Source: Acidimicrobiales bacterium (lineage in GTDB: Bacteria; Actinomycetota; Acidimicrobiia; Acidimicrobiales; Ilumatobacteraceae). Taken from it: a DNA stretch of 56,103 bases. The stretch is taken from positions 1-56,103 of the forward strand of contig JAURJB010000004.1 in NCBI GenBank assembly GCA_030832455.1, written 5' to 3'. Numbering within the stretch: position 1 is the stretch's first letter; every line of letters begins with the position of its first letter. The notes beneath the pieces are model-generated. The model ran no database searches and had not been told where the DNA came from. It saw nothing but the letters and a program-made list of their open reading frames with translations. The position numbers and the translations under genes were made by a program. Positions 14,927 through 45,488 of this stretch are shown one piece after another.

Positions 14927-16243
14927 ATGAAGAAAACAGCAAAGCGTCGCTTCGGTGCTCTCGTTGTTAGTCTCAGCCTTGTGGCTGCGGCTTGCGGCGG
15001 AAGCAGCGAAGGTGAAGAAACTGCCACCACCGGTGGCGAATTGGAAGGCATGAAGGGCACAATGCCACTCGTCAACCTTTCATCTGAGTTCAAAGATGGC
15101 ATGAATGCGTTCTGGACTGCTGCAGGCAATGCAGCGCTTGAAGACTATTCATATGCTGCAGAATCATTTGACTCAGTAATGCTCATTGCACTTGCAGCAG
15201 AAGCAGCAGGGACTGATGGAAGCGCACTTGCTTCACAGATTCAAGCTGTCTCAGCTGGTGGTGAAACTTGCAGCGACTTCGCAGCCTGTGTTGCAATCAT
15301 TGCAGCAGGTGGCGATGTTAACTACGAAGGTGCCTCTGGCCCACAGGACATGAACGGAAACGGCGAACCAATTAATGCTTCGTACGGCGTTCTTACCTTT
15401 GGTGCAGACAACCGTTTCAAGTACGAAGATGCTTCGTACGTTCTTGCTGATGCTCCAGAGTCGGACATTGTTCCAAATGCTGAAGTAACTGTAGAGCGTA
15501 AGGGTGACGGCGTATTGAAGATTGGTTCGATGTTGCCAGAAACCGGTTCACTTGCATTCCTCGGACCACCAGAATTTGCCGGTGTTGAGTACGCAATCAG
15601 CCTCATCAATGAGGCCGGTGGTGTTCTTGGCAATCCAGTTGAATACGTTCAGGGTGACTCGGGTGACACCAGCACTGACACAGCAAGCACAACCGTTGAC
15701 CGTCTCCTCGGAGAAAACGTTGACGCCATTATTGGTGCTGCTTCATCGTCAGTGTCGCTGACCGTAATCGACAAGATCACTGCTGCTGGAGTTGTTCAGT
15801 TCAGCCCAGCAAACACATCAGACAAGTTCTCAACGTATGCCGACAATGGTTTGTACTTCCGTACCGCTCCTGCTGACAAGCTCCAGGGTGCAGTACTTGC
15901 AAACCTCATTGCAGGCGACGGTGCAGCGACTGTCTACATCATGGCGTTGGACGATGCTTACGGCACGGGTCTTGCTGACTCGATCGAAGCAAACCTCTCC
16001 GCAGCAGGTGTAACTGTTCTTGGCAAGAAGATTTACGATCCAAAGGCCACAACATTTGATGCTGAAGTTGCAGAAATCAAGGATGCAAATCCAGATGCAA
16101 TCATGCTCGTAACATTTGACGAAGGTTCACGTATCTTGCGCACCATGGTGGAGCAAGGAATCGGACCTAAGGCAAAGATGGTCTACGGCTGTGACGGCAA
16201 CATGGGTAACGCACTCGGCGAAAACTTCGACTCGGGTAAGTAA
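14927..16243 (+). CDS. Branched-chain amino acid-type ABC transporter solute-binding lipoprotein with apparently permuted domain order
   Basis: Lipobox LVAAACGG. Residues from about 38 (ELEGMKGTMP...) resemble the usual C-terminal part of LivJ-type SBPs; residues from about 193 (GDGVLKIGSMLPETGSLAFLG...ENFDSGK-stop) resemble the usual mature N-terminal part. Confidence 0.9.
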   Translation: MKKTAKRRFGALVVSLSLVAAACGGSSEGEETATTGGELEGMKGTMPLVNLSSEFKDGMNAFWTAAGNAALEDYSYAAESFDSVMLIALAAEAAGTDGSALASQIQAVSAGGETCSDFAACVAIIAAGGDVNYEGASGPQDMNGNGEPINASYGVLTFGADNRFKYEDASYVLADAPESDIVPNAEVTVERKGDGVLKIGSMLPETGSLAFLGPPEFAGVEYAISLINEAGGVLGNPVEYVQGDSGDTSTDTASTTVDRLLGENVDAIIGAASSSVSLTVIDKITAAGVVQFSPANTSDKFSTYADNGLYFRTAPADKLQGAVLANLIAGDGAATVYIMALDDAYGTGLADSIEANLSAAGVTVLGKKIYDPKATTFDAEVAEIKDANPDAIMLVTFDEGSRILRTMVEQGIGPKAKMVYGCDGNMGNALGENFDSGK

Positions 16244-16265
16244 TCCCTGACTCTGTCAGTTTACG

Positions 16266-16299
16266 AAAAGGCCCCCAACCGAAAGGTTGGGGGCCTTTT
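16266..16299. terminator. Intrinsic bidirectional terminator
   Basis: Perfect 15-bp arms AAAAGGCCCCCAACC-GAAA-GGTTGGGGGCCTTTT between convergent genes, with a T-run on either strand. Confidence 0.93.
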
Positions 16300-16320
16300 T
16301 ATTTCTCGAATTCTGAACAA

Positions 16321-17058
16321 TCAGCCGCCGGTCATTTTGGCAAGAGTGCCGAGGTACAGCTTGATCACATTCGGGTCTTCAAGTAGCTGTCTGCCGGTTC
16401 CCGTGTATGCATTCTTGCCTTGATCAAGCACATATCCACGATCAGTGACCTGCAAACAACGGCGAGCATTCTGCTCCACCATCAAAATGGCGATGCCTTC
16501 TGCGTTGATGCGCTTGCATTGGATGAACACTTCATCTTGCAACGCTGGTGCTAGACCAGCGCTTGGCTCGTCTAGCAATAGCAATTTGGGTTCCATCATT
16601 AACGCGCGACCCATGGCGACCATCTGTCGTTCACCACCACTCAGTGAACCTGCACGTTGGTTTGCGCGCTCACGAAGCTTTGGGAATAGCGAAGTGACGT
16701 ATTTAAAACGCTCATCAAATACATTTGGTTTCAGAAAACAACCCATTTCGAGATTTTCCGAAACCGTCAAGCTTTGAAAGACGTTTTGTGTCTGTGGCAC
16801 ATAGCCAACACCTTGTTCAACGAGTTCGTGAGCCTTCTTGCCTGTGATGTCGGCGCCGAGGAACGAAACAGATCCGGATCGCACTCCACACTGCCCAAGA
16901 ATTGCTTTGAGCACCGTTGACTTACCAGCACCGTTAGGCCCGATTACCCCAACGAACTCACCAGCACGCACCTCGATGTTGCAGCCGTTCAAGATATTCA
17001 CTTCGGGGATATAGCCAGCAACTAATTCATCAACTATCAGCACTCGATCGTCGGTCAT
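16321..17058 (-). CDS. livF: Branched-chain amino acid ABC transporter ATP-binding protein
   Basis: GPNGAGKSTVLK Walker A, LSGGERQMV signature, LLLLDEPSAGLAP. Confidence 0.94.
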   Translation of the reverse strand: MTDDRVLIVDELVAGYIPEVNILNGCNIEVRAGEFVGVIGPNGAGKSTVLKAILGQCGVRSGSVSFLGADITGKKAHELVEQGVGYVPQTQNVFQSLTVSENLEMGCFLKPNVFDERFKYVTSLFPKLRERANQRAGSLSGGERQMVAMGRALMMEPKLLLLDEPSAGLAPALQDEVFIQCKRINAEGIAILMVEQNARRCLQVTDRGYVLDQGKNAYTGTGRQLLEDPNVIKLYLGTLAKMTGG

Positions 17059-17936
17059 GACTTGTCCTCGCTGTCAAGCAGTGATTTGCCCTGGTGGCTG
17101 CCAAGATATGCCTCGATAACGGATTGGTTAGATGAAATCTGTTCAGGAGTACCCTCAGCAATAATTTTGCCCTCTGCCATTACTACTACCCAATCCGAAA
17201 TATCGTGCACCATGTCCATGTCGTGCTCGACAAACAGCACCGTCATTCCATCATCGCGTAATCCGCGAATATGTTCGTTCAAACTCTGTTTGAGTGCTGG
17301 GTTTACGCCAGCCATTGGCTCGTCCAACATGACGAGACGAGGGTTTGTCATCAGCGCACGCGCCATCTCGAGCAATTTGCGCTGACCGCCCGACAGAGTT
17401 CCTGCATATTGATCACGCATGTGGTCGAGTTTGAATCGCTTCAGCAGTTCTTCGGCTCGTTGCTCAATCATGGCTTCCTGTTTGCGATAGCGGAATGGAA
17501 ATAGGCCGTTCCACCACTTTTCGCCAGTTTGATGGGTGGCGCCAAGCTTCATGTTCTCGATTACGGACAATTTTGTAAGGCTCTTGGTCAATTGAAAGGT
17601 ACGCACCATGCCCAAACTGGCCGTACGGTGGGCAACGACCTTTTGAAGGTTCTTGCCATCGAACATCCACTCGCCTGCATCAGGTGAATCGAAGCCCGTG
17701 AGCAAGTTGAACAAGGTGGTTTTGCCTGCACCATTGGGGCCAATCAAAGCAGTAATAGAACCACGTTGTACCTCAAGATGAGCGACATCTACTGCGGTGA
17801 CGCCACCAAAATTGCGTTTCACATTGTTGGCAAAAAGAATTGGATCTGGTTTAGAGACACCAGGTGAGGCGTTAACTGATTGCAAAGCGGCTCGTGCTCG
17901 CAACGCTAGATCCGAATATGAGCGATCAGCGACCAT
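17055..17936 (-). CDS. livG: Branched-chain amino acid ABC transporter ATP-binding protein
   Basis: GPNGAGKTTLFNLLTGF, LSGGQRKLLE, VMLDEPMAGVNPAL. Confidence 0.94.
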   Translation of the reverse strand: MVADRSYSDLALRARAALQSVNASPGVSKPDPILFANNVKRNFGGVTAVDVAHLEVQRGSITALIGPNGAGKTTLFNLLTGFDSPDAGEWMFDGKNLQKVVAHRTASLGMVRTFQLTKSLTKLSVIENMKLGATHQTGEKWWNGLFPFRYRKQEAMIEQRAEELLKRFKLDHMRDQYAGTLSGGQRKLLEMARALMTNPRLVMLDEPMAGVNPALKQSLNEHIRGLRDDGMTVLFVEHDMDMVHDISDWVVVMAEGKIIAEGTPEQISSNQSVIEAYLGSHQGKSLLDSEDKS

Positions 17937-18930
17937 CGAGCGCCATCTCTTCCTTGCTACCGAACACTCCCTGTGGACGGAACGTCATCAGCAGCATCAG
18001 ACCAAGACCAATCAACATGTAGTTGACGGGCCCAACTTGTGATTTCTGAATCAATCCGAAGCCAAAAATTTCGAATGGCTTATCCTTTGTGAGTTCACGT
18101 AGAAAGTTGTCGCTGAACACATAGATGGCCCAAAACATCATCGGGCCTACTACAGAACCACGAACCTTTGCCACACCACCCAATACCAATGCGGTGAGAA
18201 CGTAGAACGTCACGTCGCGGCTGTAGTTATCAGGCTGGACCGATCCTCGATCAAGTGCAAAGATCATGCCCGAAAACATTCCGATTACGCCACCGATAAT
18301 CAGCGATTGCATCTTGTATGAATACACATTTTTACCAAGACTTCGAACTGCATCTTCGTCTTCTCTAATGGCCTTCACAACACGACCCCACGGGCTCTTC
18401 ATCAACATGTACACCATGAACGAGAACAGTGCTACGAGAGACCAACCAACGATTATTGTCCAGAACGAGTAACCGCTGTACTGAAATGGTCTGATTCCAT
18501 ATTTACCCGCTGGATCAAATGGACTGAGGTCTCTAAATGATTTACTAAAACTGTTGATTCCGTCGGAACCACCAAAATACTTCTTGAACTCAACGGAACG
18601 AACCACAAGGCGAACAATCTCGGCCGCTGCGATTGTCACAATTGCTAAGTAATCCGCTCGCAGACGGAGTGTGGGGATTCCAACTAAAAGACCGAGAATG
18701 ACCACAAAAACCAACCCGATAAGAATTCCCCACCACATACCAACACCGAAATATTGAGATGTCATCCCAAACCCGTAGGCGCCACAGGCCATAAATGCTG
18801 CTTGACCAAAGTTAAGCAAGCCGGTGTAACCAAACTGAATGTTGAGGCCGATTGCCGCAAGTGCGAAATACGCGGCGTCAATACCGAATAAAGCAGAAAG
18901 AGTATTCTCGAGAATTTTGATGATATCCAT
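17926..18930 (-). CDS. livM: Branched-chain amino acid ABC transporter permease
   Basis: Polytopic; GLNIQFGYTGLLNFGQAAFMACGAYG and RAIREDEDAVRSLGKNV motifs. Confidence 0.93.
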   Translation of the reverse strand: MDIIKILENTLSALFGIDAAYFALAAIGLNIQFGYTGLLNFGQAAFMACGAYGFGMTSQYFGVGMWWGILIGLVFVVILGLLVGIPTLRLRADYLAIVTIAAAEIVRLVVRSVEFKKYFGGSDGINSFSKSFRDLSPFDPAGKYGIRPFQYSGYSFWTIIVGWSLVALFSFMVYMLMKSPWGRVVKAIREDEDAVRSLGKNVYSYKMQSLIIGGVIGMFSGMIFALDRGSVQPDNYSRDVTFYVLTALVLGGVAKVRGSVVGPMMFWAIYVFSDNFLRELTKDKPFEIFGFGLIQKSQVGPVNYMLIGLGLMLLMTFRPQGVFGSKEEMALDGR

Positions 18931-18933
18931 AGA

Positions 18934-20292
18934 TCAACCAACCCTCTGTTTGCGACCAAGTATGCCCTGTGGGCGAACAACGAGCACAATGATCAAGATA
19001 AATAAAGCGGGAGCATTCTTGAGTTCTGCTGGAACCACAAGTGAAGCAAGTTCAACGAGAATGCCAACGAGGAATCCTCCTACGAGCGCTCCGTAGGCGG
19101 ACCCAAGTCCTCCAAGCGTGATGCCCGCGAACATCAGAAAGATCAAGCCAGACCCCATCTCGAACCCAACTTGTTCATCAAGCCCACGGAATAAGCCGCC
19201 CATCGCAGCAAGCGCTCCACCAGCAAACCACACAATGCGAATGATCTTCTGCGTATCAATTCCCGTACTCGATGCGAGGTTTGGATTATCCGAGACGGCA
19301 CGAATGGCCTTGCCCGTTCGGGACTTTTGCAAATACAACGCTACTGCTACAAGTGCGATCAAGGAAATGATTGCAGTAGTTAAATCACGCATGGTGATAC
19401 TCACTGGCCCAAAACTCTTGGCAACTTGCAAACTGAAGTCATCAAGTGGACGAGTTCGACCGCCAAATTGGTACAGGTACATATTTCTCAACATGATTGA
19501 GAGGCCAACCGAAACGACCAGCTGCGATATGAGTCCAATACCACGCTTGCGCAACTTGGCAAAAATGATGGCATTCATCGCTAATCCAAATACGCCACCT
19601 AGCGCGATCACTAATGGTGCGGCGATCAGCAATGGCACGCCAAGTAAAACATTTAACCAAAACGCGATCAATCCACCGAATGTCACCATTTCACCGTGCG
19701 CAAAATTGGTTAAACCGGTTGTTCCAAAAATCAAGGACAGACCCACCGAACAGATCGCGATAATCAAACCCAATCGGATGCCATCGACCAGTCGTTGCAC
19801 TACGCGATCAAAAAGCGGTGCACCTGTTGCTGTACTCGACCCCGCAAAGAATGTAACTCGCTTGGCATTAGTAGTGAACGAATCCTTTTCGATGATCGCT
19901 TGGGTCTTATTCTCGTCAATCAACGTGATGCCGTCTGGCAACGTAGCGAGATCAATGTTCACTAGATAGGAATCCTTTGACGGAACGGAGATCGTCACGA
20001 TGCCACTTGCATCGGTAATCCCCTCACCTACTGCACTTCCCGTGGCAGTAGTTACAGAAATTGACACGCCAACCACTGGATTCTTCGTCGCAACACCATC
20101 ATCAATGGTTTGATTCTGGACTGACACAACAATCGAAAACTCAGACTCTTCAGCTTGGGCTGCACCGGAAAAGGCAAACACAGACGCGGCAACAACTACG
20201 AGAGTCTTGAGCAGACCAACCCATTGTTTTCGTGCTGTGACTACATTGTTCACGAGATCCCCAATTTTATGATTCGTACTAGTCAAGCACAT
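18934..20292 (-). CDS. livH: Branched-chain amino acid ABC transporter permease with N-terminal signal peptide and extracytoplasmic domain
   Basis: C-terminal LivH-like permease (GLSLIFGTTGLTNFAHGEMVTFG), preceded by a signal-like segment (VVVAASVFAFSGAAQA) and a soluble beta-rich region. Confidence 0.9.
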   Translation of the reverse strand: MCLTSTNHKIGDLVNNVVTARKQWVGLLKTLVVVAASVFAFSGAAQAEESEFSIVVSVQNQTIDDGVATKNPVVGVSISVTTATGSAVGEGITDASGIVTISVPSKDSYLVNIDLATLPDGITLIDENKTQAIIEKDSFTTNAKRVTFFAGSSTATGAPLFDRVVQRLVDGIRLGLIIAICSVGLSLIFGTTGLTNFAHGEMVTFGGLIAFWLNVLLGVPLLIAAPLVIALGGVFGLAMNAIIFAKLRKRGIGLISQLVVSVGLSIMLRNMYLYQFGGRTRPLDDFSLQVAKSFGPVSITMRDLTTAIISLIALVAVALYLQKSRTGKAIRAVSDNPNLASSTGIDTQKIIRIVWFAGGALAAMGGLFRGLDEQVGFEMGSGLIFLMFAGITLGGLGSAYGALVGGFLVGILVELASLVVPAELKNAPALFILIIVLVVRPQGILGRKQRVG

Positions 20293-37117: not shown

Positions 37118-37174
37118 TCCCAAACCCAATGGGTGTATGGTTTAGACAGAAATCAGGGCATGTGGGGGTTGGAC

Positions 37175-39772
37175 ATGAGCGAGGCCACTAAGACACAACA
37201 GATTGAGTTTGTTGTCAACGGTGTACCTGTGCGCGTCCGCTCTCATCACCCGCATCTTCTGTCAGCGTTGCGCGACGAACTCAATATTACATCTCCAAAA
37301 GATGGGTGTTCACCCAGCGGACAATGTGGTTGCTGCACCGTTTTTGTCAATGGCAAGGCCGTAGTGAGTTGCCAAACAAGTCTTGACAAAGTATCGGGTG
37401 GCGAAGTAATGACACTCGAAGGCGTTGATGAACAAGAACGCCAGAAATACGCACATGCTTTTGCAGCGTGTGGCGGTTTGCAATGCGGTTTCTGCATTCC
37501 AGGCATCGTTGTTCGGGCAAAAGCCCAAGTTGATAAAAAGGGTGCATCGCTGAAACGTGAAGATATGGCACGGCATCTTGGCGCCCACCTATGCCGCTGC
37601 ACCGGTTATGTGAAGATTCTCGACGCAATTGAAATGGTTGCAACCGGCCAATCTCCACATTGCGAACCTGTCGGCGGAGTTGGTTCACGCAGCGTTAAGT
37701 ATGAAGCACAACAACTAGCCCTCGGAGATCGAGGTTATGTCGATGACATTCGCATTGATGGCATGCAACATGGCGCATTGCACCTCACCTCACATGCTCG
37801 CGCGCGAGTAATTAACATTGATGCCACAGCAGCCCTCGCTCATCCGAATGTAACCGCCGTGTTCACGGCAGCAGATATTCCAGGTGAACTCATGGTGGGG
37901 ATTATTTATAAGGACTGGCCAGTGATGATTCCGGTTGGAGGGATGACTTCATATGCGGGCGACGTTCTTGCAATCGTTGTCGCTACGGATCGGATTTCAG
38001 CACGCGAGGCCGCACAACTCGTAGACGTGACGTATGAAGTTTTGCCACCAGTCACCGATCCACGCAAGGCATTAACCAATGAAGACATTGCTGTGTGGAA
38101 AACCGAAAGCAACATTCTGAGTACAAGCTCATACTCGAGAGGCGATGTTGACGCAGCTTTCACGCAATCCACCCACATTGTTGAACAGGATTTCAGCACT
38201 CAACGAATCGAGCACGCTTTTCTCGAACCAGAAAGCACTCTTGCAGTTCCTTCTCTAGATGGATCCTCTGTTCATGTGTATTCAGGCGGACAAGGCATCT
38301 GGGACGACCGCAATGACATTGCCAAGGTGCTCGGAATTGACAACAGCCAAGTAACGGTTGAGCTGATTACTAATGGTGGCGCATTCGGCGGCAAAGAAGA
38401 CATGAGCAACCAAGCGCACGCGGCACTTGCTGCGTGGTTGCTTAAGGTGCCAGTCAAATGCACCTTGTCCCGTGAAGAAAGCTTCCTGATGCATGCAAAG
38501 CGTCACCCCATTGAGATGTCATACAAAATTGGGTGCAACGAAGCTGGAGAAATCCTTGCACTTCACGTGCGAGCACTTGGCGACAGCGGCGCCTACGCCA
38601 GCGTGGGCATGAAGGTTCTTGAACGCATGGCTGGCCACGCAAGTGGACCATACAGTGTCCCAAATATCAATGTTGAAGCAATTGCGGTGCGCACGAATAA
38701 TCCCATCTGCGGAGCGTTTAGAGGTTTCGGCGCAAATCAAGCTCAATTCGCGATGGAAGGCGTGCTGGATCGTCTCGCTGAAAAGGTTGGAATTGACGGT
38801 TGGACGCTGCGTCGTCGCAATGTGATCATGCCGGGAATGGTGTGGGGACCCGGTCAGATCATGGACGATGGTTGCCTTGGCGCATCAAAATGCCTTGATG
38901 AAATCAAACCTGCATACGACAAAGCACGTCGCGATGGAAAAGCGATTGGGCTTGGTCTTGGGCTCAAGAATTCAGGTTTAGGTAACGGCTTTAAAGAGAT
39001 CACACGTGCGGTGGTTCACTTCACACACGACGGACGAATTGAGGTTCGCCACGGCTGGACAGAGATGGGTCAAGGGATCAATACCGTCGCTCAGCAAGTT
39101 GTTGTTCATGAACTCGGAGTTGATGGCTCGTTAATCGATGTCATCGTAGATACAACACGCGAACTTGGACTAGGTCAAACCACCGGTTCGCGAGGAACAC
39201 TGATGGGGGCTGGCGCTGTTCAAGCTGCTTGCCAAGCAGCACTGGCCGCCAATTGCGCGGTTGGAGTTGACCATCTTGGTGAATACCGAGTGGATTGGAC
39301 AACCAAACTTGGCGACCCAGGTGTCGAGCACCCGATCATTCATTCAACATTTGGTTATGCCGCCCAACTTGTTGTTATTGATAAAGAGACGGGAAAGATC
39401 GAAGAAGTGATTGCTGCTCACGATGTTGGCAAGGCTGTGAACCCACAACTATGTGAGGGACAAATTGAAGGTTCCGTGCACATGGGACTTGGTTACGCAC
39501 TCAGTGAAGATTTCCCGAGCGATCCGATAACTGGATACCCGACGAACACCACACTACGAAGCTTGGGCATCCTACGGGCTAAAGATGTTCCCAAGATTTC
39601 CGTGATGATCGTTGAGTCTCCTCAACCGAACTCACCGTACGGAATTAAAGGCGTTGGAGAGATCGGCCTTGTGCCAACCGCGGGTGCAGTTGCGGCCGCG
39701 CTCTATGAGTATGACGGTCAATGGCGTAACAAGTTACCGATGCGCCGCAACGACGCGAGCTCTGAAGAGTAG
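37175..39772 (+). CDS. Fused [2Fe-2S]/molybdopterin-binding xanthine dehydrogenase family protein (XdhD / Se-dependent hydroxylase-like)
   Basis: DGCSPSGQCGCCTV and CGFCIPGIVV...CRCTGYVKI (two 2Fe-2S), then a Moco domain with GGAFGGKED, GAFRGFGANQ and YGIKGVGEIG; no FAD domain between. Confidence 0.9.
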   Translation: MSEATKTQQIEFVVNGVPVRVRSHHPHLLSALRDELNITSPKDGCSPSGQCGCCTVFVNGKAVVSCQTSLDKVSGGEVMTLEGVDEQERQKYAHAFAACGGLQCGFCIPGIVVRAKAQVDKKGASLKREDMARHLGAHLCRCTGYVKILDAIEMVATGQSPHCEPVGGVGSRSVKYEAQQLALGDRGYVDDIRIDGMQHGALHLTSHARARVINIDATAALAHPNVTAVFTAADIPGELMVGIIYKDWPVMIPVGGMTSYAGDVLAIVVATDRISAREAAQLVDVTYEVLPPVTDPRKALTNEDIAVWKTESNILSTSSYSRGDVDAAFTQSTHIVEQDFSTQRIEHAFLEPESTLAVPSLDGSSVHVYSGGQGIWDDRNDIAKVLGIDNSQVTVELITNGGAFGGKEDMSNQAHAALAAWLLKVPVKCTLSREESFLMHAKRHPIEMSYKIGCNEAGEILALHVRALGDSGAYASVGMKVLERMAGHASGPYSVPNINVEAIAVRTNNPICGAFRGFGANQAQFAMEGVLDRLAEKVGIDGWTLRRRNVIMPGMVWGPGQIMDDGCLGASKCLDEIKPAYDKARRDGKAIGLGLGLKNSGLGNGFKEITRAVVHFTHDGRIEVRHGWTEMGQGINTVAQQVVVHELGVDGSLIDVIVDTTRELGLGQTTGSRGTLMGAGAVQAACQAALAANCAVGVDHLGEYRVDWTTKLGDPGVEHPIIHSTFGYAAQLVVIDKETGKIEEVIAAHDVGKAVNPQLCEGQIEGSVHMGLGYALSEDFPSDPITGYPTNTTLRSLGILRAKDVPKISVMIVESPQPNSPYGIKGVGEIGLVPTAGAVAAALYEYDGQWRNKLPMRRNDASSEE

Positions 39773-39774
39773 CA

Positions 39775-40845
39775 ATGACACATTCCACATCTGGTCTTGT
39801 GTGCGCCCATCACCATTTGTACAGTGCGCTGGCACGGGGCATGCCTGCTCCTCCACTTCCCACTACCGATTTCATCAGTATTCTTGAAAACGTCTGGTGG
39901 CGTCTAGATGCAGCGCTTGATCTTGACATGATCTACTGGTCTGCCGCGCTTGGTGCATCAGAGGCACTTGCGAGTGGCACGACATGCATCATTGACCACC
40001 ATGAGTCGCCAAATGCTATTGAAGGATCGCTTGCAACAATTGCTAAAGCATGTCGCGATGTAGGAGTTCGAGTGAACACGTGTTACGGAGTAACCGATCG
40101 CTGGAGCGACACGGGACAAATCTCGCCTTCAGTATCAGCATCAACAAAGATGACTTCTGCTGCACGCAGAGGGCTCGATGAATGTCACTCGTTCATCAAA
40201 AGCGGGGGCGATGCAATGATTGGCGTCCACGCAGCATTCACATGCGGAAACGAGACATTGAACGCTGCCGCAGACTTGGCGAAATCTCTAAACGTCGGTG
40301 TGCACATTCATGTCGCCGAAGGCATTGACGATATTTCTGCAGGAGAACGGTTGGAGGCTTTAGCGCAAGACAACTGGCTGCTTGTGCACGGTGTGCATCT
40401 AGACCGCCAACTTCTTGGTCGAATTGTTCACAATCCGCGGTCCAACATGAACAATGCGGTTGGCTATGCACGACCTGCGCATAAGCCAAATACCATTCTT
40501 TTAGGCACAGATGGAATTGGTGCGAACATGATGGAAGAGGCCAGGCTTGCCTACGCTCGTCTTCGCGAAGATGATGTTTCGGAGACACCTGAGACCGTTG
40601 CCCAATGGTTGAATAACGGCTACGAGTTATTTCCAGATGCCAAGCGTGACACAGTGGTGTGGTCTTACGAGCACATGGAAAATGCGTGGCACACTGCCTT
40701 CACCACACACATGCAACCAATTTCGGTCGATATTGATGGCGAACGTGTGTATGAAGATGGAAAATTTCTCAAGATTGACATTCAAGAAATTCGCAGAAAA
40801 GCAAATGAACAAGCGTTACGGCTATTTGAAAGGTTAGAAGTATGA
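39775..40845 (+). CDS. SsnA-like amidohydrolase lacking the usual N-terminal segment
   Basis: [17 protein letters not shown] metal motif close to the N-terminus, [36 protein letters not shown] and [14 protein letters not shown]. Confidence 0.88.
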
Positions 40846-41882
40846 CACTTCCGCAGGCAGCGATCAATCCCGCCACAGGCAAAGCTCGAATGGCTATCTA
40901 TCTCCAAGATGCACATCCCATTCGAGAAGGTATGGCCTTTGCTCAGTATGCAGAAGCAAAAGGATTTGAAGCAGTGTGGCAAGCCGAAAGCCGTCTTGTT
41001 CGTGAAGCAACCGTTCCGATGGCTGCTTTCGCTTCAGTTACATCATCGATCAAGGTTGGATCTGGTGTTGTTGACTGCTGGAGTCGCAATCCAGCACGCC
41101 TTGCTGCAACATTTTCGACACTCGACGACCTTGCTCCTGGCCGCGTGATCCTTGGAATTGGCGCTTGGTGGGATCCTCTAGCGCAAAAGGTAGGCATCTC
41201 ACGGGCAAAGCCACTCCGCGCAATGCGTGAAATCGTCAATGCGGTACGTGCATTGCTCAATAACGAGAATGTCACGTTTAATGGTGAATTCGTGCATTTC
41301 GACGGCATCGAACTTGACTACGTGTATCAAGATCGCCGCGCCAAAGACGTTCCTATCTACATAGGAGCTACGGGCATGCAAATGATGGAACTCACTGGTG
41401 AGATAGCTGACGGAGTCGTACTTAACTATTTGGTTTCTCCCGATTACAACAAACAAGCGATGCAAGCATTACAAACCGGCGCAGATAAGGCTGGTCGCAG
41501 CATCGACACTATTGACCGACCACAATTGGTCGTCTGTAGTGTGCATGAAGATCGCCAGACGGCACTAGATATGGCGCGAGAGATGGTGACTCAATATCTT
41601 GGTCAGCAACCGCACATCATGAAAGCATCAGGAGTCCCTCAGTCACTTCTTGACAAGGTTGGCGAAGTGTTGACATGGCCCGCCACGCACGAACAGGTCA
41701 CCAAGGCTTCAAAGCTTGTTCCCGATGAGATCGTGCAGATGCTTACAGCAAGTGGAACACCAAGTGAGGCTCGACAGCAGGTAAAGCATTACATCGAAAA
41801 CGGGGCTACATGTCCGATTTTGTACCCACTAGGTGACGTGCACGCCATGATCGACGCATTTGCTGATTGGGATGGGAATTAG
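40842..41882 (+). CDS. LLM-class (F420/flavin-dependent) oxidoreductase
   Basis: [30 protein letters not shown] and [19 protein letters not shown] resemble luciferase-like F420-dependent enzymes. Confidence 0.87.
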
Positions 41883-41890
41883 ACGTGTCA

Positions 41891-42730
41891 ATGATTGTTG
41901 CAAAGAACCTAGAAGCCGCCCTTTTCGCCCTGCGTGAACACGATGATGCTCGTGTGATTCAAGGTGGAACCGATCTGATGGTAGAGATCAACTTCAATCA
42001 TCTGAAGCCAACCACAATGGTGAGCCTTCGACACATCCCCGAGCTACGCACCATCACTCGCCCAGACAGCAACACCATCTCTATCGGGTCCGGTGTCCCG
42101 TATTCACAGCTCGAGATTGAGCCTGTTGCCTCGGTGCTGCCCGCGCTCGCCCAAGCATCCCGTACCGTTGGCTCTCCTCAGATTCGCGCTGCCGGTTCAC
42201 TCGGGGGCAATCTCGGCACATGCTCACCGGCTGGCGACACACTTCCTGTCATGTTCGCACTTGATGCCAACATCCACTTGCAGTCGGCCGATTCACAACG
42301 TACGGTCTCAATTCATCAATTCATGACGGGCGTAAAACGTAATGTCAAACGCCAAGATGAAATCATTACCGCCGTTGACTTCCCCATCATTGACGGCTGG
42401 CAGGGATATTCAAAAGTTGGAGTGCGAAATGCCATGGTGATTTCCGTTGCATCTGCATGCCTGGTTGCAGATCACGAGTCGGGCGATGTGCGACTGGCTC
42501 TCGGATCCGTTGGACCAACCATCATTCGCTGCCGAGAGACCGAACAATGGCTAAAAGACAACACATCACTAACCCGCAATTCGGTGATTTCTCCGGACAT
42601 TGCTCGCGAGTTTGGCGCACGTGCGAGTCGCGAATGCTCGCCAATTGACGACCATCGAAGTACCGCGCAATATCGTCGTCATGCTATTTCAATTCTGGCT
42701 GCTCGTCTACTACAGAAGGCTTATGCATGA
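41891..42730 (+). CDS. Xanthine dehydrogenase family FAD-binding subunit
   Basis: ARVIQGGTDLMVEIN and AAGSLGGNLGTCSPAGDTLPVMFALDA FAD motifs. Confidence 0.93.
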   Translation: MIVAKNLEAALFALREHDDARVIQGGTDLMVEINFNHLKPTTMVSLRHIPELRTITRPDSNTISIGSGVPYSQLEIEPVASVLPALAQASRTVGSPQIRAAGSLGGNLGTCSPAGDTLPVMFALDANIHLQSADSQRTVSIHQFMTGVKRNVKRQDEIITAVDFPIIDGWQGYSKVGVRNAMVISVASACLVADHESGDVRLALGSVGPTIIRCRETEQWLKDNTSLTRNSVISPDIAREFGARASRECSPIDDHRSTAQYRRHAISILAARLLQKAYA

Positions 42731-43221
42731 GCATGAACGAGTTCTACACACTCAATGTCAATGGTCAATCGATGCAGGTACAGGACTCATGGGTTGGTGA
42801 AAGCCTCCTCTATGTCCTGCGCGAACGTTTGGGCTTGCCAGGTTCGAAGGGTGCTTGTGAGCAAGGTGAATGTGGCAGTTGCACAGTTCTCCTTGATGGG
42901 CAGGCTGTGTGTTCGTGTTTGGTCATGGCAGCCACTGCAGTGGATAGCACGATCGTGACCGTTGAAGGTTTAGATGCACATGGCGCCGAACTGACCGATG
43001 TTCAAGATGCCTTTGTCCAACAAGGTGCCGTCCAGTGTGGCTTTTGTACACCAGGCCTGATCGTTGCAATACATCACCTACTTGACGAAAATCCACAACC
43101 TTCCGAACTAGAGGTAAAAGAAGCAATATCGGGAAATATTTGTCGCTGTACTGGCTACGGCAGGATTTTTGCCGCAGTTGAACAAGCCGTTGCCGTGCGA
43201 AAGGCTTCGCACACATCATGA
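42727..43221 (+). CDS. Xanthine dehydrogenase family [2Fe-2S] subunit
   Basis: GACEQGECGSCTV and CGFCTPGLIVA...CRCTGYGRI. Confidence 0.95.
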   Translation: MSMNEFYTLNVNGQSMQVQDSWVGESLLYVLRERLGLPGSKGACEQGECGSCTVLLDGQAVCSCLVMAATAVDSTIVTVEGLDAHGAELTDVQDAFVQQGAVQCGFCTPGLIVAIHHLLDENPQPSELEVKEAISGNICRCTGYGRIFAAVEQAVAVRKASHTS

Positions 43222-45488
43222 GTACTACAAAAGTCGAACAACGAGAACGTGACATTTTGGGCGTTAGCGCTATACGCCCGGACGGTGCCGCGAAGGTAAC
43301 GGGTGACTTTTCATTTACCTCTGATATGAATGCCGAGAATATGTTGTGGGGAGCCACTCTTCGATCACCACACCCGTATGCCCGTATCGTCAGTATCGAT
43401 ACATCGCGTGCGTTGGCACTACCGGGCGTGCATTGCGTCATTACTGCTGACGATGTTCCTGGCAAGCCGACATATGGCTTGATCAGTAGCGATCAGCCCG
43501 TCTTTGCACGTGACTACGTTCGCTATATGGGCGAGCCAGTTGCCGCACTCGCCGCGGACCATCCTGAAACATGCCGCAGAGCGCTTGCTCTCATCGACAT
43601 TGAATACGAAGTGTTGAAGCCTCTTACTAACGCCGAAGATGCAATCGCCGGATCGTTTCCTCCTATTCACCCAGATGGAAACATTATTCGTCACCAACGC
43701 ATCGTTCGAGGTGATCAAAGTGCAACAGGTCCAATCATCGTTGAGGGTGAGTACGAAATTGGCATGCAAGACCAAGCCTTCTTGGGACTAGAGGCTGCGT
43801 TGGCTATCCCCGATAGTCACGGCAAAGGTGTTGAGTTGCACGTGGCAACACAATGGCTACACGAAGACCTTGGGCAAATTTCTGCGTGCCTCGATCTGCC
43901 ACCGCAAAACGTGCGCCTTATTCTTGGTGGAGTTGGCGGAGCGTTCGGCGCACGTGAAGACATCAGCTTGCAAGTTCACTGTTGCTTGCTCGCGCTTAAA
44001 GCGGGACGCCCGATCAAAATGCAATATGGTCGCGAAGAGAGTTTTTTTGGCCACGTCCACAGACACCCAGCAAAAATCTTTATGCGCCATTACGCCCAGT
44101 CAGATGGTCGTATTATCAAAATTGAAGCGCGTTTTGTATTTGATGGTGGTGCATACACCAGCACTTCGCCTGCGGTATTAATCAACGGCATCACCCATAC
44201 GCAGGGGCCATATAAGTGTGACAACGCAACCGTAGATGGGTGGGCAATTCGAACGAACAACCCTCCTTGTGGTGCAATGCGTGGATTCGGAGTAGTCCAA
44301 GCATGCTTCGCCCACGAATCCCAGATGGACAAGATCGCAACAGCTGCCGGATTATCCGCCGTTGACGTTCGGCTCATTAATGCAATGGAAACCGGCGACA
44401 CATTGATAACAGGTCAGGCAATGGAAAGCATCGCACCAGTTGCTCGCTGCATCATCGAAACCGATCACATCCCTCTTCCCGCGCCGCTCGCTGCCAATGC
44501 ACACGAACTGCTTCTACCTGGAGGCAGTGGTTTGACAGCGTCGGCATCACATATTGTTCGCGGTGTTGGCTGGGGTGTCTCGATGAAGAATCTCATGTAC
44601 AGCGAAGGTTTTGACGATTTTGCAACCGCACGCTGCTCGATCAAAGAAGGCGTTGTCTATCTCAAATTTGCAACATCTGAGGTAGGTCAAGGTTTCGTGA
44701 CACTAGCGCCCCAGATCGCACGTTCCGTACTGGGTCTTGACGATGTTGTAGTTGAACCAATCGATACGCAGATTGGTTCTGCGGGATCTACCTCCGCATC
44801 TCGACAGACATGGATGAGTGGAGGTGCTGTAGACGGTGCATGTCGTTTGGTTCGTGAACAGATCTTCCAACACGTTGGCAAACAGAACAACATCGATCCA
44901 CTGCGGCTTGTCATTGAAGGCACCGACATTATCGATCAAATTGGAACATTTCGCATTGCCGTTCGTGAAGCAATAGACGGGCTGTCAATCTCTGAAACAT
45001 TCGAGCATCATCACAAACCGACTGAGGAGCTTGACGAAAACGGACAAGGTAACTGCCATACTGCTTTTGCATTCGTTGCCCACCGTGCAGTTGTTGACGT
45101 TGATCCCGAACTCGGTCTGGTCAAGGTTGTCCAAATCGCTACGGCTCAAGATGTCGGACGCGTCCTTAATCCACTCTCCGCATTAGGACAAATCGAGGGA
45201 GGCATCGCCCAAGGTTTGGGACTAGCAGTGATGGAAGAAATTGTGATCCAAGACGGCAAGGTACGTAACCCAAGCTTTACCGACTATCTCCTACCTACAA
45301 CCCTCGATGCACCGGATGTTGTGGCGAAGATGATCGAAGAATACGAGCCCCAGGCACCACTTGGTGCAAAAGGTATCGGTGAACCACCGTGTATTTCTGT
45401 CACCCCAGCTATTGTTGCTGCGATTCGTGATGCGATTGCCAAGGATCTACATCGGATCCCTGTGCGACCTCAAGATATTTGCCTTTAG
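43218..45488 (+). CDS. Xanthine dehydrogenase family molybdopterin-binding subunit (PucD-like)
   Basis: GGVGGAFGAREDIS, GAMRGFGVVQ, PLGAKGIGEPPCISVTPAI and C-terminal RIPVRPQDI. Confidence 0.93.
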   Translation: MSTTKVEQRERDILGVSAIRPDGAAKVTGDFSFTSDMNAENMLWGATLRSPHPYARIVSIDTSRALALPGVHCVITADDVPGKPTYGLISSDQPVFARDYVRYMGEPVAALAADHPETCRRALALIDIEYEVLKPLTNAEDAIAGSFPPIHPDGNIIRHQRIVRGDQSATGPIIVEGEYEIGMQDQAFLGLEAALAIPDSHGKGVELHVATQWLHEDLGQISACLDLPPQNVRLILGGVGGAFGAREDISLQVHCCLLALKAGRPIKMQYGREESFFGHVHRHPAKIFMRHYAQSDGRIIKIEARFVFDGGAYTSTSPAVLINGITHTQGPYKCDNATVDGWAIRTNNPPCGAMRGFGVVQACFAHESQMDKIATAAGLSAVDVRLINAMETGDTLITGQAMESIAPVARCIIETDHIPLPAPLAANAHELLLPGGSGLTASASHIVRGVGWGVSMKNLMYSEGFDDFATARCSIKEGVVYLKFATSEVGQGFVTLAPQIARSVLGLDDVVVEPIDTQIGSAGSTSASRQTWMSGGAVDGACRLVREQIFQHVGKQNNIDPLRLVIEGTDIIDQIGTFRIAVREAIDGLSISETFEHHHKPTEELDENGQGNCHTAFAFVAHRAVVDVDPELGLVKVVQIATAQDVGRVLNPLSALGQIEGGIAQGLGLAVMEEIVIQDGKVRNPSFTDYLLPTTLDAPDVVAKMIEEYEPQAPLGAKGIGEPPCISVTPAIVAAIRDAIAKDLHRIPVRPQDICL

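Follow-up and report, generated by a model that had tools for sequence, protein, structure and literature searches.

The window, i.e., the whole stretch of 56,103 nucleotides analysed here, is contig C64 in a draft genome of 1.47 Mb, which comprises 119 contigs and is 88% complete. It carries a gene for a LivJ-type solute-binding protein (SBP), which is adjoined by a full set of cognate LivFGMH genes; a strong hairpin lies where the SBP and LivF genes converge. The features of the locus are the following:

14927..16243, plus strand: permuted LivJ-type solute-binding lipoprotein gene, open reading frame of 438 amino acids
14927..14995, plus strand: lipoprotein signal peptide, ending at lipobox Cys23 (VAAAC), from the sequence
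14996..15037, plus strand: low-complexity tether, residues 24-37 (GGSSEGEETATTGG), from the sequence; pLDDT <50 for residues 1-34
15038..15451, plus strand: old C-terminal part, now N-terminal, residues 38-175 (PF01094 271-350/353; HMM order)
15452..15508, plus strand: joint where the old C-terminus meets the old N-terminus, residues 176-194 (about 19), from sequence comparison
15509..16240, plus strand: old N-terminal part, now C-terminal, residues 195-438 (PF13458 2-231/343)
16265..16300, no strand assigned: strong hairpin flanked on either side by T/A runs, putative bidirectional terminator (-31.5 kcal/mol, z -6.4)
16321..17058, minus strand: LivF-type ATPase
17055..17936, minus strand: LivG-type ATPase
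17926..18930, minus strand: LivM-type permease
18934..20292, minus strand: LivH-type permease, extended at the N-terminus by about 160 amino acids (PF02653 on residues 169-437)

Inspection of the sequence by eye identified both a signal peptide and a lipobox, as in a secreted lipoprotein, and the signal peptide is 61-76% identical to that of colinear orthologs of the same genus (residues 1-25/26). The hairpin at 16265..16300 was not in the output of a consensus scanner, and a consensus promoter scan gave no match above chance. The 452-residue LivH-type permease has a signal-like start, and its extension, which shows weak bMG3 and CarboxypepD_reg matches and is of the same kind as one found in the colinear-type cluster L089, could conceivably be a beta-sandwich turned toward the binding protein. 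Elsewhere in the window (37133-45488, plus strand), the ORF translations show two sets of molybdenum-hydroxylase (xanthine dehydrogenase-like) genes with amidohydrolase-like genes, a content suggestive of purine or heterocycle catabolism.

The sequence-only reading of this DNA had proposed that the lipoprotein is circularly permuted, opened in the crossover loop FDSG|ELEGMKG and with the old termini fused in frame. The residues that it quoted are present in the open 438-aa frame, and both the permutation and its cut point are borne out by the order of the HMM matches, the predicted structure and the conservation of the arrangement in many genomes. When the two parts were scanned separately, residues 38-191 matched positions 271-350 of the 353 of PF01094 (E = 1.3e-5), and residues 193-438 matched positions 2-231 of the 343 of PF13458 (E = 1.5e-38), so the profile coordinates appear in swapped order. 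A single colinear full-length match, which would have spoken against the proposal, was not obtained, and the colinear succession of N-lobe, C-lobe and N-lobe segments is absent, the C-terminal part coming first. As controls, the same-genus ortholog L021 aligned colinearly to PF13458 2-338 over its residues 51-411, and L125 to PF01094 6-350 over its residues 113-449. Membership of the window protein in PF13458 is clear (135.6 bits against a curated cut-off of 31.7), and chance resemblance of its first part was excluded by the PF01094 match and the HMM scores. At the level of known structures, residues 7-234 of the chain of PDB 4gnr correspond to residues 196-428 of the query, and residues 251-306 of the chain to residues 42-100. 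The order of the gene is confirmed as the C-terminal third followed by the N-terminal two thirds of a LivJ-type (PF13458/PF01094) protein, where residues 195-438 represent the first half of the N lobe plus the C lobe.

Comparison with colinear relatives localizes the cut and the joint. The colinear protein L125 reads ...NALGEQFTEPG-ALEGMKGTTP... at the position of the cut and ends with ...TEFRTAQL, while the permuted proteins end like ...NALGENFDAGK, begin like ...GGELEGMKGTTP and have a joint like ...TEYKIAN-APPEADVPQQPAQGTRK-GDGVLKIG. The two halves are complementary with respect to a colinear relative, i.e., no residues are doubled or lost and there is no overlap. Neither a stop codon nor a second signal peptide is present near 15470-15510, as the earlier reading had maintained. 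Two cysteine residues, 115 and 121 (15269-15271 and 15287-15289), are invariant in 31/31 permuted proteins; the same KCT-F--C motif occurs in the colinear relatives inspected, and a disulfide bond between them is possible.

The permutation would take out the third of the inter-lobe crossovers of the LivJ fold and add a new joint between the old C-terminus and strand beta-1, which would leave three inter-lobe connections. An AlphaFold (AF2) model, run with an alignment of 31 permuted sequences, was confident (pLDDT 88.9, pTM 0.86), with only residues 1-34 poorly modelled. Its best sequential PDB match was the Leu-bound structure 4n0q (2.3 A, 241 columns); because Foldseek aligns sequentially, this match covers the N-part only (TMq 0.50), and the evidence for the way in which the moved part is predicted to pack is the AF2 confidence. 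The distances to the superopen structure 1z15 (6.9 A) and to the apo structure 1usg (7.7 A) are larger, so that the model represents a closed form. The three putative ligand-contact residues, all invariant in 31 permuted proteins, were located by alignment with Atu2422 (3ipc):

15746..15748, plus strand: Ser274, aligned to Ser79 of Atu2422
15815..15817, plus strand: Thr297, aligned to Thr102 of Atu2422
16193..16195, plus strand: Asp423, aligned to Asp226 of Atu2422

We take S79, T102 and E/D226 to be the residues that contact the alpha-amino and carboxylate groups in amino-acid binding. Asp423 stands 15 residues before the new C-terminus.

The order of parts seen in the window was also found in related genomes, some of them assembled independently and from other sites. 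Within the genus, the majority of the 23 genomes encode a protein that aligns colinearly with the permuted form. According to counts made by hand from the match listing, this form is present in about 80 of the 201 genomes and in 12 of the 27 genera of the family, at 44-95% identity, and the permuted order extends to seven further families of the order. The gene order Cmk-GuaB-Sua5-SBP-LivF-LivG-LivM-LivH-CtaA is widely kept among relatives. The SBP slot in it is occupied by the permuted form in many genera and by a colinear protein in g9, g12, g13, g16, g17 and g26, in some genomes of g10 and g19, and in three of the genomes that belong to the genus of the window. Under the names Ferrithrix thermotolerans or Bifidobacterium breve, some public records (L059, L060, L062, L063) carry this same acidimicrobial locus, and their names look wrong.

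With this distribution, an assembly or binning artefact, in which a collapsed repeat gave an artificial order, has a negligible probability. The draft genome is in 119 contigs and relatives do have tandem SBP genes, both of which speak for such an artefact; however, the identical order, joint and cut recur in many assemblies, with public records from different studies holding the permuted form. Long contigs carry it as well (G043:C1, 1.3 Mb; G405:C1, 5.1 Mb), and the f139 permuted type, described below, is present in the single-contig genome G855. Additionally, dN/dS values against relatives (0.08-0.19 overall, 0.05-0.21 per half) indicate that both halves are under purifying selection. The earlier judgement that an assembly error was the less likely explanation is thus upheld by the recurrence of the same order in the independent assemblies of relatives.

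In trees built from the parts after re-ordering, the main permuted clade, which comprises f1, f3, f9, f13, f19, f41, f42 and f47, is monophyletic, with support of 100/99, and the linker pattern AP-S--VP is common to most of it. The permuted protein L150 (G758), a form also present in G1080, nests with the colinear proteins L138 and L141, and forcing it into the main clade was rejected (dlnL 99.6, AU p 7e-51). Since L150 is nested among colinear proteins and the forced joining is rejected, we infer at least two permutation events, one in the ancestor of the large clade spread over the order and one in another actinobacterial family (f101: G758, G1080), at the same loop. The f101 pair (L202, L203) is cut as in the main clade and has a different linker.

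A further permuted type, that of f139, begins with ...VRLYGTDGNMQNSF..., ends with ...ALADAGVPIRH, and has its cut about 25 residues earlier and a third linker. Its clade is solid (100/100) and sits on a long branch, and joining it to the main clade gave AU p values of 0.28 and 0.19. The type is conserved in 33 genera with many single-contig genomes, a count that includes any colinear-only genomes at the threshold used. Its other cut and linker suggest that f139 was trimmed separately, either in an event of its own or from a fused precursor that it shared and that was cut down differently; f139 is probably a third permutation event, about 25 residues away from the others. The f139 permuted SBPs (L167, L182-L201) are widespread in a family with genomes of 3.5-14 Mb. 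Plasmid-collection matches to this type from Nonomuraea and Arthrobacter were set aside, as Nonomuraea proved colinear, with three tandem copies, and the Arthrobacter ORF is incomplete. Three tandem colinear SBP genes are located at L222:3869-9122 (plus strand), in a Nonomuraea gerenzanensis record named "plasmid I" that, at 11.85 Mb, is probably a chromosome.

A single event for all permuted proteins, with the inner colinear relatives as reversions or mosaics, would explain why the f101 pair and the main clade share their cut point, and the grouping of the main clade with f139 survives the AU test (p 0.28 and 0.19). We consider it very improbable, since the grouping of the main clade with L150 is strongly rejected, the linkers of the three groups differ, f139 is cut elsewhere, and a reversion would itself require a second permutation. 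Beyond the separate events, we put forward tentatively, at somewhat below even chances, that permutation is recurrent in actinobacterial LivJ-type lipoproteins, having taken place independently three times or more, each time at one crossover loop or no farther than about 25 residues from it, and fed by frequent tandem and fused gene copies; it may be favoured because the lipid tether then sits at the hinge instead of the N-lobe pole.

The route that the earlier reading had suggested, i.e., a tandem duplication followed by loss of the outer halves, is supported indirectly: tandem and in-frame fused copies exist at the same locus in relatives. Separate copies in tandem are frequent, occurring as permuted pairs in L077 and L165 and as colinear pairs in L164 and L177. 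Fused in-frame copies with the order N-C-N-C (818 and 962 aa) are present as single ORFs in two f35 genomes, and their internal joint has neither stop codon nor signal peptide:

L162:6824-9277, minus strand: double binding-protein lipoprotein N-C-N-C, ORF running towards LivF at the customary place of the SBP gene
L163:4521-7406, minus strand: double binding-protein lipoprotein N-C-N-C, single ORF

More tandem SBP copies lie alongside both double proteins. Given that the fused forms belong to a distant colinear branch (f35), they establish that an intermediate of this kind exists, and are not proof of the ancestor of this lineage. Long upstream frames fused to the SBP, such as that of L080 (906 aa), were also considered as fusions; their upstream part has no match to the window protein, and since GC-rich genomes make the start ambiguous they were not counted.

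The permutation-by-duplication model predicts tandem and fused duplicates (PMC3320104). Under this model, an in-frame tandem duplication would have produced an N-C-N-C protein, and trimming of its outer halves would then have left the C-N order. A real permutation could also have come about otherwise, by gene fission and re-fusion in reverse order, a recognised model (PMC3320104), or by pasting of a C-terminal segment behind a signal peptide, and the clean and complementary cut, with no leftover duplicate sequence, would suit such a route. Nevertheless, we regard it as unlikely: the family has duplicates both in tandem and fused in frame, the ordinary signal peptide still stands in front, and in the family genome listing, which was read unsystematically, separately encoded halves were noticed only at contig ends.

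We conclude that the gene very probably encodes a working, naturally permuted type I (cluster B, LivJ/HAAT) lipoprotein that would have arisen by duplication and trimming and would deliver an amino-acid-like ligand to the adjoining LivHMGF transporter. The permuted protein would fold and bind like LivJ, with its lipid anchor now at the crossover or hinge end of the N lobe instead of at strand beta-1. That it is instead an orphan sensor or decoy lipoprotein, with the fold kept and the transport role lost, seems quite improbable. In the window and in nearly all of its clade, an intact LivFGMH set adjoins the gene and its phylogeny largely tracks that of the SBP, most permuted-associated transporters standing apart from the colinear-associated ones in the LivFGMH tree, with weak mixing at the base. 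Furthermore, the ligand-contact positions are invariant, and no other PF13458 match was found in the window genome (88% complete). What speaks for an orphan role is the occurrence of permuted homologs without Liv genes. In genus g23 (L077 8186-11750, L078, L079), a permuted SBP lies near CtaA with the LivFGMH genes absent; Sua5 is also nearby in L077 and L079, and L077 has its two permuted SBPs in tandem. The one f139 locus inspected, L167:8804-10153 (plus strand), likewise has no Liv genes around the permuted SBP. Therefore, not every member need serve LivHMGF.

The finding is of interest chiefly for its recurrence and for the coexisting evolutionary states. As colinear and permuted forms occupy one slot, even within one genus, and tandem and fused forms occur too, the duplication model, as well as what permutation costs or brings, becomes testable on natural proteins instead of designed ones. 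Annotation as PF13458 alone conceals this topological change across many actinobacterial genera.

The sequence-only reading knew of no described natural permutation in LivJ proteins. This holds for the LivJ family, as the open-licence papers searched contain no permuted LivJ/PF13458 protein besides engineered sensors; it does not hold for type I lipoproteins at large, where Tp0684/TpMglB-2 of Treponema pallidum, a glucose binder of "Type Ic / Cluster Bc", is a natural permuted case (PMC4990184). TpMglB-2 is the nearest described case, belongs to another family, the sugar-binding MglB family, and is cut elsewhere. It retains ligand binding and closure and is encoded beside its ABC transporter genes; its cut lies inside the N-lobe sheet, with strands one to three transferred to the C-terminal end, and adds a fourth crossover (PMC4990184). 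Both systems are permuted type I lipoproteins adjoining ABC transporter genes. In contrast, the window protein belongs to the LivJ family (PF13458) and is cut at the crossover from the C lobe to the N lobe; it has no sugar-binding PF13407 match listed, with PF13458, PF01094 and PF13433 matches instead. Moreover, each of its two parts has clear homology to the colinear orthologs that occupy the same locus, whereas the permuted part of TpMglB-2 shares only 13% identity with EcMglB and may have another origin (PMC4990184). The authors of that study suggested that tethering may favour the permuted topology (PMC4990184).

With the HAAT proteins LivJ/LivK, PRK15404, 4gnr, 4n0q and 3ipc, the window protein shares the profile and structure match of its N-part, the contact residues and the LivFGMH neighbours, and it differs from them in its swapped parts and in having no single colinear match. 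Permutation by duplication has been documented for DNA methyltransferases and for saposin/swaposin (PMC3320104) and was not previously shown for PF13458 binding proteins in the papers searched. As in those families, fused tandem duplicates and permuted and colinear forms occur here within one family; partly trimmed intermediates were not found. Finally, the LIV-binding part of engineered LIV sensors (e.g., NeIle, 8z0g/9jti) matches the query; these are laboratory constructs and not natural proteins, and the natural cut sites described here are on offer for permuted biosensors.
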